Both the position numbers and the translations under genes were made by a program. A stretch of 64,000 nt of DNA, from positions 62,001 to 126,000 of the forward strand of contig JAKAOK010000001.1 in the NCBI GenBank assembly GCA_021812245.1, read 5' to 3'. Shown here in pieces: positions 5,555-11,710 of this stretch; position 1 is the first letter of the stretch, and every line of letters begins with the position of its first letter. The notes beneath the pieces were generated by a model. The model had not been told where the DNA came from. It ran no database searches and worked only from the letters and a program-made list of their open reading frames with translations. Source of the DNA: a bacterium. Its GTDB lineage: Bacteria > SZUA-79 > Acidulodesulfobacterales > Acidulodesulfobacteraceae.

Positions 5555-6658
5555 TCAGTCGATATCCGTTATAAAATATAAAGCAAACGATAGAAATATA
5601 ATATCGGACATAAACGCGGACAGGATAGGATTAAGCTGGGCGGATTCTCCAAGAGACAAAGCTATGGAATTTATAACCCACCATGTAAAAGCAAATACTA
5701 AACTGATGCCTATAGAAACGGGAGAATTACCCTTTTTCCCGAGCAAAAGCCCGATAGAAATTCCTATCAGTATAAGAATTAAATTGATAATAGGAAAAGA
5801 TAATTTAGAATAATAACTCGTGAGAATATAACTTAAGCCCGATTCGGATTTTTTTGCCACCGTTATCATTTTTGAAAGGTTTATTATCGATAAAAACTCA
5901 GGTTTCAAGGTATAAGACCTGAAAAAATTTAAGTCTAAATACATCGGAATATTAATAGTTTTAAAATATTTCTGGACAAATCCCCGCCCCTTTTCTATAT
6001 CGAAATCGTCTTCCTGCCCGCCCGTTAATTTTAACCCGCCTTTTCCGAAATAGCCGGTTTTAGCGATATACCTCTTTTTCAGCATAAATTTATCGTCAAA
6101 TACGTAAACGTTGACTCCCCTAACCGTCTTAGATGCCGGGTCCATAATCTCCGCCGTCACTATGCACCGCTTATAATGAATAAATATGTTTTTGGTAGTG
6201 TATTTATAGACCGAACCCTCGTTATAATTTTTATTTTTATTAATATCTTTCTGCATAACGACTCTTCTCAAAACATTCGACCTTACCGCGACAAAATTAG
6301 AAAGCAAAAATGCAAAAACGGATATTGCCGCGCCTAAAATTATTAAGGGAGCGAAAAATCTCGTCATGCTTAAACCGGAAGATTTTACGGCCGTTATTTC
6401 GTTATTTTTATTAAAAAAGGATATTGAAAGCAGGGTTGACAGAAGGACCGACAGCGGAAGCACCCTGTATGTTATCTCCGGCAGTTTGTAAAAAAAATAA
6501 AGAATTATATATTGAAACTCAGGGGAATGCTTTGTGAAGGCGCCGATGTTGGAAATAAAATCCACCACTATATAAAAAAATATAAGGCTCAGAAGCGATA
6601 CGGCGAAATATTTTAAAAATTCGCTTATAAGATATTTCTGCAATATTTTTATTTTCAT
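5555..6658 (-). CDS. lptG: LPS export permease, YjgP/YjgQ family (LptG)
   Basis: The 367-residue inner-membrane protein has N-terminal membrane helices (about 15-35, 60-80, 97-120), a large periplasmic beta-jellyroll segment (about 130-265), and three C-terminal helices (LSFPIINLILILIGISIGLLL onward). This is the family architecture, and with LptF and the LptB ATPase (17840-18562) it forms the LptB2FG extractor that hands LPS to LptC and LptA. The cytoplasmic coupling segment NEITAVKSSGLSMTRF is conserved in this family. It is assigned LptG because it is the second gene of the pair and retains the VVDFISNIGAF region typical of LptG. It lies 20 nt downstream of lptF, in one operon. Confidence 0.85.
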   Translation of the reverse strand: MKIKILQKYLISEFLKYFAVSLLSLIFFYIVVDFISNIGAFTKHSPEFQYIILYFFYKLPEITYRVLPLSVLLSTLLSISFFNKNNEITAVKSSGLSMTRFFAPLIILGAAISVFAFLLSNFVAVRSNVLRRVVMQKDINKNKNYNEGSVYKYTTKNIFIHYKRCIVTAEIMDPASKTVRGVNVYVFDDKFMLKKRYIAKTGYFGKGGLKLTGGQEDDFDIEKGRGFVQKYFKTINIPMYLDLNFFRSYTLKPEFLSIINLSKMITVAKKSESGLSYILTSYYSKLSFPIINLILILIGISIGLLLGKKGNSPVSIGISLVFAFTWWVINSIALSLGESAQLNPILSAFMSDIIFLSFALYFITDID

Positions 6659-6678
6659 AGATATTCAAATACCCGCAA

Positions 6679-7767
6679 TTACTTTAAAAAGGCTTTTAGA
6701 TACAGAACGGAGCCGGAAACGGCAAGAAATAAATCCGCTCCCCAGACGCCTATGACGGGATTTAACTGATTTCTAAGGGACAGATAAAATCCCGACGTGA
6801 AAATTATATAATAAATCACCACGAATATTATAGTATATGAAATGGCAAGAAATAAACTCCTTTTTTCCAAAAGCATACCGAGCGGCATACCTATGAATAT
6901 AAATAAAACCGTGGCGGCGGGAATAGCGATTTTTTTATAAAGATACGCAAGATAAATATTTTTCATTTCGGGACTTTTTTCAGTCAGATATTTTCTTGCA
7001 AGAACGGAAAAAGTTAAAAAATGCATGGAACTGTTTTTTCCGGGAAAAGACAGGCCTTTTAATTTAATATTTATTTTATAGGTATTAAAATGCAGGAGCC
7101 AGAAGCTTTTTGAATCCGGATTCTGGTTTTGGATAGTTCCTTTTTTTAAATAAAAAGACAGCGTGTTAAGTTTTTGATTGTATTTTATACTGCCGCTTTT
7201 TGCTATTAAAGTTTCAGGCGTATTATGGACTTTGTTTAATATAAAAATGCCCTTCAGGGTAGATTTATCCGCATTAACGTCTTTCACGAAAATTTTTAAG
7301 TTTCCGAACCTGTTTGTCAGCGAATTTCTTTTTAACGCCGAGAGAGCGGCTTTCTTGACCTCTTTTACGGCAAGGACCCTGAAAAAAAAATTGAATCTGG
7401 GTGCTACATAAAAGGAAAAAAGAATCGAAAACGAAAGGGGTATTAATGCAAATAATAAAACCGGTTTCGTAAGCTTAAATATGCTTATGCCCGAAGCCCT
7501 GAGCGCCATAATTTCGTTATCCTGCGTCATTTTTCCGAACACCGTCAAGAGGGCAAGCAAAAAAGACACCGGAAGAGTTATTATCATAAAATCCGGTATA
7601 GTCAAACTTGCAAGTTTTATTACCGCCGAAATGCTTATGCCTTTATTTAGAACCATCTGCGTCAACAAAAGAATACGGTTTATAGTAACGCTGAACGTAA
7701 ATACTAAAAGTCCGAAAATAAAGGGAAAAATCATCTGTCTAAATATATATCTGTCTATGGTTGACAT
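6679..7767 (-). CDS. lptF: LPS export permease, YjgP/YjgQ family (LptF)
   Basis: The 362-residue protein begins MSTIDRYIFRQMIFPFIFGL, a typical LptF start. Membrane helices lie at about 12-32, 55-78 and 98-122. A periplasmic domain (about 125-260) and a C-terminal helix bundle (IAIPAATVLFIFIGMPLGM...) follow. The segment NEIMALRASGISIFKLTKP is the family's coupling helix that contacts LptB. Upstream lies the 143-nt divergent region shared with the pseudo-receiver gene; I see no clear promoter hexamers in it. Swapping the LptF and LptG labels is possible but unlikely. Confidence 0.85.
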   Translation of the reverse strand: MSTIDRYIFRQMIFPFIFGLLVFTFSVTINRILLLTQMVLNKGISISAVIKLASLTIPDFMIITLPVSFLLALLTVFGKMTQDNEIMALRASGISIFKLTKPVLLFALIPLSFSILFSFYVAPRFNFFFRVLAVKEVKKAALSALKRNSLTNRFGNLKIFVKDVNADKSTLKGIFILNKVHNTPETLIAKSGSIKYNQKLNTLSFYLKKGTIQNQNPDSKSFWLLHFNTYKINIKLKGLSFPGKNSSMHFLTFSVLARKYLTEKSPEMKNIYLAYLYKKIAIPAATVLFIFIGMPLGMLLEKRSLFLAISYTIIFVVIYYIIFTSGFYLSLRNQLNPVIGVWGADLFLAVSGSVLYLKAFLK

Positions 7768-7910: not shown

Positions 7911-9176
7911 ATGTCGTATAATTTAATTTTTATAGACGAAAGCGAGTCAATGCAAAGAGCTGTAGCTGCCATATTTCTCGATAATCCGGAATTCAATCTT
8001 GCTCTTGTCAACGAACCGTCGTCCATTTATAAAGCGGCTAAAAACTTTAATCCCGATATAATCGTATTGGGCTACAACACTATCGACACCGGATTAAAAA
8101 AAAGCATAACGGAAATAAAAACAAGCAGGGAATTCTCGAATATACCGCTCATTTTATTAGTCCCCTCAGATTTATCGGACAATGAAAGAGAAACCCTGAT
8201 AAAGCTGAATTCTGACGGCTTCATATACAGGCCTTTCGATAAAGACGCTTTTATCTCAAAAATAAAAAGGACCCTTAATGGAGGCAATACTGATTCTAAT
8301 ACCTCCGAAAATACCGCAAATACAGGAAATGCGGGAGAAAAGATATACGATATAGCATCCTTTGAAAATAAGAGAACAAACGAAAACGCTTACGATCAGG
8401 AGCATAGCGGTCCGGAATCTTCGGAATTAAGCCAGGCATTCGAAAATTTATTTAAAGACGACGCGATATTTAAAGAATTCCAGAACCTCAATAAAAAAGA
8501 GGGGTCCGGCACTGCCGGCTATATCATAGAAGACGAAACGGCGGCGCAGTCTGCTAAAATTCCTGATGCAGAATTAATTGCCGGCCTGAACGAAGAATCT
8601 GCGGTTCCGCCTGCATCATATACGGAAGCCGTAGAGCCTAAAGAACAGCCTGCACCTCCTGCGGAAACTACGGAACCGGAACCAATTGCCGCCGCAATGC
8701 CTGAAGAAATCTTCGGACCTGCGGAACCGCCTGAACCCGGCGGCAGTACCCCGGGGATTTTTGAATCTAACAGCCTGTCCGAACCGGTTAAATCTGCCGG
8801 AATATTCGAATTAAATACGCCGGACGAAGAACAGCCTCAAGAACATATTGAACATAATAAAGACGAAGGCGCCCCTGCTTTCAACGAGCCTTTTGCCGGT
8901 TTTAATATAGCCTTAAGCGGTAATACGGAAGAGATTGGCGAACCTGAAGCATATAAATTAAATACGGACATAAGTACTAAAAAATCCGAAGGAGAATCAA
9001 ATTTGAAAATTTTAGACGAACAAAATCTCGTTAAATTGGAAGATTATTTAAAAAACGCCATAGAAAAAACTATCGATGAGATTAAGCCTCAAATAATCGA
9101 AACCATAAAAACAGGTCTTCCCGAAATTATAGAAAGGCTCGTCAAAGAAGAAATAGAAAAGATTAAACAACAATAA
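7911..9176 (+). CDS. Pseudo-receiver protein with acidic Pro-rich linker and PopZ-like C-terminal helices
   Basis: The 421-residue protein has three visible parts. Residues 1-125 look like a response-regulator receiver (NLIFIDESESMQRAVAAIF..., PDIIVLGYN..., IPLILLVPS..., GFIYRPFDKD). The phospho-acceptor Asp is replaced by Gly54 and the conserved Lys by Arg, so it is probably not phosphorylated. Residues about 130-370 are low in complexity and rich in Glu, Pro and Ala, likely disordered. Residues 375-421 form a charged helix ending LPEIIERLVKEEIEKIKQQ. This resembles the C-terminal oligomerisation motif of the polar organiser PopZ (DUF2497); that match is from memory. PopZ also has an acidic Pro-rich disordered middle. 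The ribosome site gggaggc is strong. nadC follows after 10 nt. A scaffold or polarity role is inference only. Confidence 0.7.
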   Translation: MSYNLIFIDESESMQRAVAAIFLDNPEFNLALVNEPSSIYKAAKNFNPDIIVLGYNTIDTGLKKSITEIKTSREFSNIPLILLVPSDLSDNERETLIKLNSDGFIYRPFDKDAFISKIKRTLNGGNTDSNTSENTANTGNAGEKIYDIASFENKRTNENAYDQEHSGPESSELSQAFENLFKDDAIFKEFQNLNKKEGSGTAGYIIEDETAAQSAKIPDAELIAGLNEESAVPPASYTEAVEPKEQPAPPAETTEPEPIAAAMPEEIFGPAEPPEPGGSTPGIFESNSLSEPVKSAGIFELNTPDEEQPQEHIEHNKDEGAPAFNEPFAGFNIALSGNTEEIGEPEAYKLNTDISTKKSEGESNLKILDEQNLVKLEDYLKNAIEKTIDEIKPQIIETIKTGLPEIIERLVKEEIEKIKQQ

Positions 9177-9186
9177 CCGTTAAGAT

Positions 9187-10038
9187 ATGCGTATTTTCGA
9201 GCCACAGGTAAAACATCTTATATATGCGGCGCTGAATGAAGATATTAAAGGCGGCGATATCACTACCGATGCCGTCACGTTTAAAAAAGACCCTGCTATC
9301 CGATGCGAGGTTATCGCAAAAAAAGATTCCGTCGTATGCGGACTACAGATATTTTCTATGGTGTTCGATATAATTTCAAAAGATAACTATAAAATAGATT
9401 TTTTGAGCGGCGAAGGAGATAAAGCGGTTAAATCGCAGAAGATAATATCCCTTAAAGCAAAAGCGAGCGACATACTGTACGGGGAAAGAACCGCTCTTAA
9501 TTTTCTTCAGCACCTGTCAGGCATTGCAACAATATCTAATATTGCCTCGAAAGAACTCGAAGGACTTAACACAAAAATTTTAGATACTAGAAAAACCATC
9601 CCCGGACTAAGAATGCTCCAAAAATATGCCGTCAAAACAGGCGGAGGAGAAAACCACAGATTCGACCTTTCATCGGGAATACTTATAAAGGATAATCATA
9701 TTAAACTTGCCGGCGGAATAAAAAACGCCATGGAAGCGGTAAAAAAGCACTATTCCGGCTTAAACTTTAAAATAGAAATAGAAACAGCCACGCTGGAAGA
9801 AGTTAAATCTGCCGTAGAAGCAAAGGCCGACGTGATAATGCTGGACAATATGGATATAAAAACAATGAAAAAAGCCGTTAAAATCATAGACGGAAAAGCC
9901 CTTACGGAAGCCTCCGGCAATATAACGATAGATAAGTTAAGAAAAATAGCCGTGGAAACCGGCGTAGATTATATTTCTATGGGGTCGCTTACCAATTCCG
10001 TAATTCCCGCCGATTTTTCGTTAAATTTCGTTGAGTAA
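9187..10038 (+). CDS. nadC: Nicotinate-nucleotide pyrophosphorylase (quinolinate phosphoribosyltransferase)
   Basis: NadC converts quinolinate and PRPP to nicotinate mononucleotide, CO2 and PPi in de novo NAD synthesis. The 283-residue sequence has the family's blocks: N-terminal EDIKGGDITTDAV, ERTALNFLQHLSGIAT, the substrate-binding stretch DTRKTIPGLR...KYAVKTGGGENHR, SGILIKDNHI, and the barrel motifs IEIETATLEEV, VIMLDNMD and EASGNI. Length is normal for the family. It starts 10 nt after the pseudo-receiver gene and probably shares its message. The Shine-Dalgarno is weak, which fits translational coupling. nadA and nadB are not in the window. Confidence 0.95.
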   Translation: MRIFEPQVKHLIYAALNEDIKGGDITTDAVTFKKDPAIRCEVIAKKDSVVCGLQIFSMVFDIISKDNYKIDFLSGEGDKAVKSQKIISLKAKASDILYGERTALNFLQHLSGIATISNIASKELEGLNTKILDTRKTIPGLRMLQKYAVKTGGGENHRFDLSSGILIKDNHIKLAGGIKNAMEAVKKHYSGLNFKIEIETATLEEVKSAVEAKADVIMLDNMDIKTMKKAVKIIDGKALTEASGNITIDKLRKIAVETGVDYISMGSLTNSVIPADFSLNFVE

Positions 10039-10112: not shown

Positions 10113-10925
10113 ATGGAAGAAATAAATTATATCGATATATTTGAAATTAAAAAACGGCTGAAGGGACCGTTTGCCGGAAAAAACTTATATTACGAAGAAA
10201 GGGTTGACTCCACAAACACTCTTGCCAGAGATTTAGCATCTAAGGGCGTAAAAAACGGAAGCGTGGTAATAGCCGACTGTCAGGAAAAAGGAAGGGGCAG
10301 AAACGGAAAATTCTGGACATCCCCCTGCGGATGCAATATCTATATGTCTATAATATTAAGGCCTAAATTCACTCCCGAAACCGCTCAGGGAATGACTATT
10401 TTGGCCGCGGTATCCGTAGCCGACGCAATAGTCGAAGCGGCTTCCCTGCAGCCTCAGATTAAATGGCCTAACGATGTTCTTATAGGCTCTAAAAAAGTTT
10501 CCGGAATATTGACGGAAATGAGTACGCAAAATATGACTATAGAATATATGGTGGTCGGTATAGGGATGAATGTTAATATACCGGAAAAAGATATGGACGA
10601 CAATATAAAAAATATCGCGACTTCGCTATTAATAGAATCCGAAAAAACAAACGGTTCAAACACTCTCATAGACAGGAACAGGCTAATAGCGTCTATTTTA
10701 AACAAATTCGATAAATACTACGAAATGTTTTTATCTACCGGCTTATCCTCCGTTCTCGGTTATTATCAAAAATACTTCGGCATGATGGGCAAAATGATTG
10801 AAATAAATGTTAAGGACAGAAGGGTCGAAGGACAGGTCGTCGGTATAGATTCCAAAGGGGCGCTTCTTTTAAAAACAGGCGAAAATGAACTGGAAAAGAT
10901 TGTTTCCGGTGAAATATATTTTTAA
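10113..10925 (+). CDS. birA: Biotin--[acetyl-CoA-carboxylase] ligase
   Basis: This enzyme activates biotin as biotinyl-AMP and transfers it to the carboxyl carrier protein AccB. The 270-residue protein has the biotin/ATP loop GRGRNGKFWTSPCG, the KWPNDVLIGSKKVSGIL block and GIGMNVNIP, then a C-terminal SH3-like domain (about 220-268). It lacks the N-terminal winged helix of E. coli BirA, so it should be a ligase only and not a repressor. It begins after a 74-nt gap with ribosome site aagagg and is followed by coaX after 5 nt. Confidence 0.93.
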   Translation: MEEINYIDIFEIKKRLKGPFAGKNLYYEERVDSTNTLARDLASKGVKNGSVVIADCQEKGRGRNGKFWTSPCGCNIYMSIILRPKFTPETAQGMTILAAVSVADAIVEAASLQPQIKWPNDVLIGSKKVSGILTEMSTQNMTIEYMVVGIGMNVNIPEKDMDDNIKNIATSLLIESEKTNGSNTLIDRNRLIASILNKFDKYYEMFLSTGLSSVLGYYQKYFGMMGKMIEINVKDRRVEGQVVGIDSKGALLLKTGENELEKIVSGEIYF

Positions 10926-10930
10926 ATTTT

Positions 10931-11710
10931 ATGATACTATCATGCGATATAGGCAACTCGTCTTCTTCTTTCGGATTGTTCGACGAGAAAGGTTACGATA
11001 TAATTAAAGCCTTCAGAATAGATACCGCAAAAATATCTTCATCAAACGATTTAAAAAAGTTTTTTGCAAAGAATAATCCGCTAAAAGATATAAACGGCGT
11101 TTCTATCTCCTCGGTCGTTCCGTCCATCGACCCCGTATATAAAGATTTTTTCGGCAAAATTAAAATCGACCCTTTTTATATTTCGTCTAAAATAAAATTA
11201 AATATTCATATTTGTTTAGAAAACGCCGAAAAATTAGGCTCTGATAGAATTGCAGACGTTAGTTATGCATTTTTTTCCAAACAAAAATTTCAGATAATCA
11301 TAGATTCGGGAACTGCTTTAACGATAGATGTCATAGATAGCAAGGGGTATTTTCTGGGAGGAGTTATATTTCCGGGCTTGCCTGCCCTTGCAGGCTCCCT
11401 TTATCAATCTACGGAAAAGCTTCCTATAGTGGAAATTAATAAAACGAATATAGAAAAAGCGCATATTATAGGCACAAACACGGAGTCTTCGATACTATCC
11501 GGAATATATTTCGGATATATATTTTTATTAGAAGGATTTATAGATAATATCTGCGATTATTATAACCGAACTGCGGAAAACACGGACATCGTCATCACCG
11601 GCGGCAACTCCGGACTTATCGCAGATGCCGTAAAAACAAAACATGTAAAAACTTTTGATGAATTCTGGACGCTGAAAGGTATTAAATATCTCTACGATTT
11701 AAACAATTAA
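10931..11710 (+). CDS. coaX: Type III pantothenate kinase
   Basis: CoaX phosphorylates pantothenate in the first step of coenzyme A synthesis. The 259-residue protein shows the ASKHA-fold motifs: phosphate-1 DIGNSSSSFGLFD, LGSDRIADVSYAF, the catalytic-loop DSGTALTIDVID, GGVIFPGL, and a C-terminal adenosine motif VITGGNSGLIADAV. The start lies 5 nt after birA with no clear Shine-Dalgarno, so it is probably coupled to birA translation. birA-coaX adjacency is common. A repeat-rich 166-nt gap separates its stop from the convergent ahcY. Confidence 0.94.
   Translation: MILSCDIGNSSSSFGLFDEKGYDIIKAFRIDTAKISSSNDLKKFFAKNNPLKDINGVSISSVVPSIDPVYKDFFGKIKIDPFYISSKIKLNIHICLENAEKLGSDRIADVSYAFFSKQKFQIIIDSGTALTIDVIDSKGYFLGGVIFPGLPALAGSLYQSTEKLPIVEINKTNIEKAHIIGTNTESSILSGIYFGYIFLLEGFIDNICDYYNRTAENTDIVITGGNSGLIADAVKTKHVKTFDEFWTLKGIKYLYDLNN

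Follow-up and report, generated by a model that had tools for sequence, protein, structure and literature searches.

Within the 64,000-nucleotide stretch of DNA that was analysed (the window), a gene for a 421-residue protein lies between the divergently transcribed lptG and lptF genes and a nadC-birA-coaX cluster. A Shine-Dalgarno-like GGAGG stands just 5' of its ATG at 7911, and 10 bp separate its stop codon from the start of nadC. The features of the locus are:

5555..7767, minus strand: lptG and lptF, upstream in divergent orientation and conserved in the phylum (best hits TIGR04408/TIGR04407, below the equivalog cut-off; synteny)
7911..9176, plus strand: gene for a pseudo-receiver, acidic linker and RomR-C/PopZ-type tail (open reading frame, ATG, 421 aa)
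7911..8276, plus strand: degenerate receiver, residues 1-122 (D9/E10 kept, Gly54 for the phospho-acceptor Asp, Arg107 for the switch Lys)
8277..9002, plus strand: acidic, Pro-containing disordered linker, residues 123-364 (composition; pLDDT < 50 over most of it)
8340..8366, plus strand: linker motif 1, KIYDIASFE, residues 144-152 (conservation among orthologues)
8424..8495, plus strand: linker motif 2, ELSQAFENLFKDDAIFKEFQNLNK, residues 172-195 (conservation; predicted helical)
9003..9173, plus strand: C-terminal tail, residues 365-421, a putatively oligomerising helix of the RomR-C/PopZ-H3H4 type (profile comparisons)
9069..9167, plus strand: tail segment matching Pfam DUF2497, residues 387-419 (profile positions 42-74 of 75)
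9187..10038, plus strand: nadC, first gene of the conserved downstream cluster (TIGR00078, 298.8 bits; synteny)
10113..10925, plus strand: birA (TIGR00121, 206.8 bits; synteny)
10931..11710, plus strand: coaX, type III pantothenate kinase (TIGR00671, 139 bits; synteny)

The initial annotation described a receiver-like domain without phospho-acceptor Asp and conserved Lys, followed by ~240 disordered acidic residues and a short C-terminal helix, and our data bear out this anatomy in all three parts. PF00072 sees the receiver weakly (E=0.001, Pfam), AlphaFold2 with an alignment of 22 relatives predicts a complete (beta-alpha)5 receiver for residues 3-124 (pLDDT mostly 72-91), and a Foldseek search returned receivers (best E 8e-8, TMt 0.86). 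The Asp position is occupied by G, S or N across 26 orthologues, while in the orthologues of the phylum the switch Lys is an invariant Arg and the Thr/Ser position is V, A or P. The loss of Asp together with the invariant Arg therefore indicates a receiver that is dead in the whole phylum. The linker (about residues 125-364) consists of 21% D/E, 6% K/R and 10% P, and its pLDDT is below 50 except for the two short motifs at 144-152 and 172-195. Its length ranges from ~170 to ~440 residues in the orthologues, which conserve the tail and both motifs, the latter as KIYDIxxFE and ELSQAFENLFKDDAIFKEFQ; motif 2 is a candidate partner-binding motif. The tail is predicted as one helix (370-420, pLDDT about 75-90), and P393, P404, E408, K412, E414 and K419 are conserved in every complete orthologue, so that it is more than a chance feature.

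The named relatives are metagenome-assembled genomes from acid mine drainage of the SZUA-79/Candidatus Acididesulfobacter lineage, and the gene is present in every genus sampled of this phylum, in the fixed neighbourhood lptG-lptF / gene / nadC-birA-coaX. In one genus (G018) this slot is occupied by a stop-to-stop reading frame of 101 aa (L172:6785-7087) that carries the tail and a version of motif 1 (EIHDISEFE) and has no receiver. Since ~75 bp lie between this frame and lptF/lptG, the receiver was deleted in G018, and the remaining frame is an independent PopZ-like reduction. A tblastn search of the window protein against plasmids returned ordinary response regulators only.

The RomR architecture and its link to MglB

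RomR of Myxococcus xanthus (MXAN_4461) and Bdellovibrio (Bd2761) has the same order of parts as the window protein at a similar length (420 aa): a receiver (REC), an acidic, Pro-rich disordered linker and RomR-C, a helical Glu-rich C-terminus of ~50 residues with a conserved Trp and Pro (PMC3441718; also PMC10329633). Both tails share the conserved Pro and an E..EI..I pattern. RomR-C was described as non-homologous to characterised domains, and RomR usually co-occurs with MglA/MglB (PMC3441718). RomR-C is necessary and sufficient for oligomerisation of RomR, up to trimers, as well as for MglC binding and most of what places RomR at the pole (PMC10329633). Phosphorylation of the RomR receiver is dispensable in part, since cells with RomR D53N remain motile (PMC3441718) and mutation of D55 leaves Bdellovibrio RomR at the pole (PMC6428892).

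When the tail profile is built from this phylum alone, it detects REC-linker-tail proteins of unrelated genomes (E 5e-9 to 1e-3), and the combined tail profile matches 86 of 386 genomes. The proposal that a receiver joined to a PopZ-like module makes an undescribed protein thus needs to be revised: the two modules are there, and they form no isolated new fusion, as this is the RomR architecture found in those 86 genomes and the PopZ tail falls into the same tail family. Outside the phylum, REC-linker-tail proteins occur in 55 genomes, where distant tails were assigned to RomR by architecture, Trp/Pro motif and MglB co-occurrence, with RomR itself known here from published descriptions. Where the receiver of these relatives is readable (n=52), Asp is kept in 43 and Lys in all 52. 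MglB is encoded in 35 of the 55 tail-bearing genomes, namely in 30/32 with the tail Trp vs 5/23 without it (Fisher p 3e-8, uncorrected for phylogeny), and this tracking suggests that the Trp lies at the MglAB/MglC interface.

The window protein departs from RomR in several respects. In contrast to the phosphorylatable D53 of RomR, its receiver has lost both Asp and Lys, and the Trp called invariant in RomR-C is absent from all orthologues, whereas the helix, the Glu residues and Pro404 are present and the profile similarity to Trp-bearing tails is significant. Unlike RomR it also has no MglB and no recognisable MglA in its phylum: PF03259 detected no MglB in 20 genomes of its own family, and no MglA-sized GTPase was seen there, the matches of PF00025 (Arf/GTPase) being confined to IF-2-/Der-sized proteins. 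That neither component was found points to a stand-alone scaffold. FrzS is a scaffold protein with a pseudo-receiver that serves as docking domain. The window protein shares with FrzS a receiver fold without phospho-acceptor, which would have the same use, but lacks the long coiled coil and has a different C-terminus.

PopZ and the gene slot upstream of valS

PopZ has been described as an exclusively alphaproteobacterial protein (PMC9512792). It assembles into trimers and hexamers through its C-terminal helices, and the condensate is tuned by the acidic Pro-rich linker (PMC9926476, PMC9512792). The likeness to PopZ that the initial annotation had suggested holds for the acidic, Pro-rich disordered middle and also for the tail, where DUF2497 matches residues 387-419 with E 9e-5 to 1.4e-3 and 19.5-23.3 bits, below the Pfam gathering cut-off of 27 bits. 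Lack of a DUF2497 match and of a conserved C-terminal motif in orthologues had been named as grounds for dropping the idea; with a sub-threshold match and a conserved tail motif, it stands as a resemblance below family level (22.6 of 27 bits, and 17.8 of 125 for the NCBIfam model PopZ_fam). The matched region corresponds to PopZ helices 3 and 4, the oligomerising ones, and this H3-H4 part gives a gap-free alignment of about 36 residues. In contrast, the helix 2 region of PopZ is unmatched, and the N-terminus is a receiver instead of the short client-binding helix H1 (MEEILASIRRII).

All 18 family tails match DUF2497, each below the cut-off, and it is the sole Pfam family matched by all 18. JHBP and GlutR_dimer, recurrent weak Pfam matches of the tails, were taken as helix artefacts. 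Across the 386 genomes no protein exceeds the DUF2497 cut-off, and at E<1e-3 the profile finds only the window protein within its own genus and three further proteins. All three likewise have an acidic linker and the tail; an intact REC stands at the N-terminus of two of them, and the third is truncated by the end of its contig. Profile alignment of the family tails with PopZ by hhalign gave a probability of 93 (E 3e-7), a value reached by 0 of 200 column shuffles, and with the family tail profile the four PopZ C-termini outscore about 1170 shuffled or reversed decoys. This PopZ set of four includes two nearly identical sequences and comprises three database sequences of Rhizobiaceae/Sphingomonas types (L096-L098) and Caulobacter; three of the database sequences L096-L099 are from closely related Rhizobiaceae. 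For the Caulobacter sequence used, residues 1-134 match PDB 6xry and the tail scores as DUF2497. Our conclusions are independent of it.

To the same end points a profile of 57 tails, none of them from the window phylum and none selected by DUF2497. It recovers the window-family tails (E 9e-10 to 1e-4) and all four PopZ C-termini (E 1e-6 to 5e-4); in the controls, no match better than E=1.9 came from 1318 unrelated natural reading frames and none better than 0.19 from 2000 shuffles. The tail of the window protein is thus homologous to both RomR-C-type and PopZ tails, with the reservation that the likeness spans an amphipathic helix of 35-57 residues, a type of sequence prone to convergence.

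Besides the tail, the position of the genes is shared. In 39 of 55 cases the tail gene immediately precedes valS on the same strand, usually with nadC or birA next (counts uncorrected for relatedness), and in L144, L159 and L166 it immediately precedes nadC-birA, which is also the order in the window. In the three alphaproteobacterial records examined, popZ is also found directly upstream of valS, an order that earlier studies report for Caulobacter, Agrobacterium and Magnetospirillum (PMC5686542, PMC6414705), so that PopZ and the relatives of the window protein have the slot linked to valS/birA in common. A TolC-family gene precedes popZ and some of the tail genes (L069, L071, L073). In the window phylum valS is not adjacent; the window genome carries it on another contig (G000:C31:45245-47662), and the phylum has a divergent 835-aa type with 730 bits to TIGR00422 vs >950 in most other genomes listed. 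From this position and type, the slot-linked valS was probably replaced in this phylum.

Several variants were seen within the tail family. L071 and L075 (G166, G303), which represent a further family, have Ser at the receiver Asp position, very PopZ-like tails and a valS start within about 10 bp, and possibly form a close outgroup of popZ. L069 (G101) carries the REC-linker-tail gene twice in tandem directly before valS, while G242 encodes, besides a normal valS-linked copy, a second, receiver-less tail protein of 178 aa (L152). In a 167-aa protein of G373 (L170), hardly any linker separates the receiver from a PopZ-like tail; PopZ was not found in the phylum of this genome, and a PopZ scan of viral contigs gave no match.

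Taken at the level of sequence and gene order, these data suggest that RomR and PopZ have a common oligomerising tail and occupy the same conserved place in the gene order. We lean slightly towards a scenario in which PopZ, alphaproteobacterial and without a receiver, descends from an ancient polar hub of the RomR type whose gene stands directly upstream of valS in many bacterial phyla. The Acididesulfobacter phylum would then be an intermediate, with a dead receiver and a PopZ-like tail, and one of its genera would have lost the receiver independently, leaving a PopZ-like protein of 87-101 aa in the same slot. We found no link between RomR-C and PopZ or between romR and valS in the open-access literature; an earlier publication elsewhere is possible.

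Function of the protein and competing explanations

With a probability of roughly 0.7, we regard the window protein as the orthologue of RomR-type REC-linker-tail proteins in the Acididesulfobacter phylum, acting as a tail-oligomerising, non-phosphorylatable and MglAB-independent stand-alone hub, most likely a polar one. The tail helix would self-associate, probably into trimers as in RomR-C, and the long acidic linker may space the partners and solubilise the assembly. Because Asp and Lys are lost, the receiver should no longer work as a phosphorylation switch but as a constitutive docking domain, and its surface would provide, together with the linker motifs, the docking sites for partners. 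The result would be a scaffold without GTPase switch, most likely situated at the cell pole in a PopZ-like manner; the polar position is the least secure part of this reading, and polar scaffolding is plausible.

A different origin of the likeness, by convergence, is unlikely but deserves the most weight among the alternatives. The tail would then be a generic charged amphipathic oligomerising helix with an unrelated role, e.g. as anchor of an envelope or metabolic complex, and this fits its short, charged and helical nature, the spurious Pfam matches (JHBP in 11 of 18 tails) and some signal in the reversed wider-tail control (A1 vs A2, hhalign probability 40). However, the PopZ tails rank above the 1318 natural reading frames and all shuffles, the three DUF2497 matches outside the phylum in the 386 genomes turned out to be acidic-linker-tail proteins themselves, and the common valS slot does not depend on the tail sequence.

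Still less probable is an ordinary single-domain-output response regulator, controlled by a kinase via an unusual site and binding effectors with its tail. Such a function would agree with the retained acidic pair D9/E10 (DD in several genera) and with the strong conservation of the receiver, which is 75-93% identical within the window genus, but it is hard to reconcile with G, S or N for Asp and Arg for Lys in every orthologue when the RomR-type relatives mostly keep these residues, or with G018, which deleted the receiver altogether and kept the tail. That the protein is a RomR with a very divergent and undetected MglA/MglB module appears highly improbable: RomR normally co-occurs with MglA/MglB (PMC3441718), as it does in 35 of 55 genomes here, yet PF03259 finds nothing in the 20 family genomes, PF00025 yields translation-factor- and Der-sized GTPases alone, and the tail lacks the very Trp that tracks MglB.

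RomR in myxobacteria and Bdellovibrio and PopZ in alphaproteobacteria have so far been treated as cell-pole hubs that arose separately. A common tail and chromosomal slot would unite RomR and PopZ in one family, polar hubs would be predicted in dozens of unstudied phyla, and PopZ would have originated by loss of the receiver. The window protein would also illustrate that such a hub can shed its phospho-control along with the MglA/MglB module.
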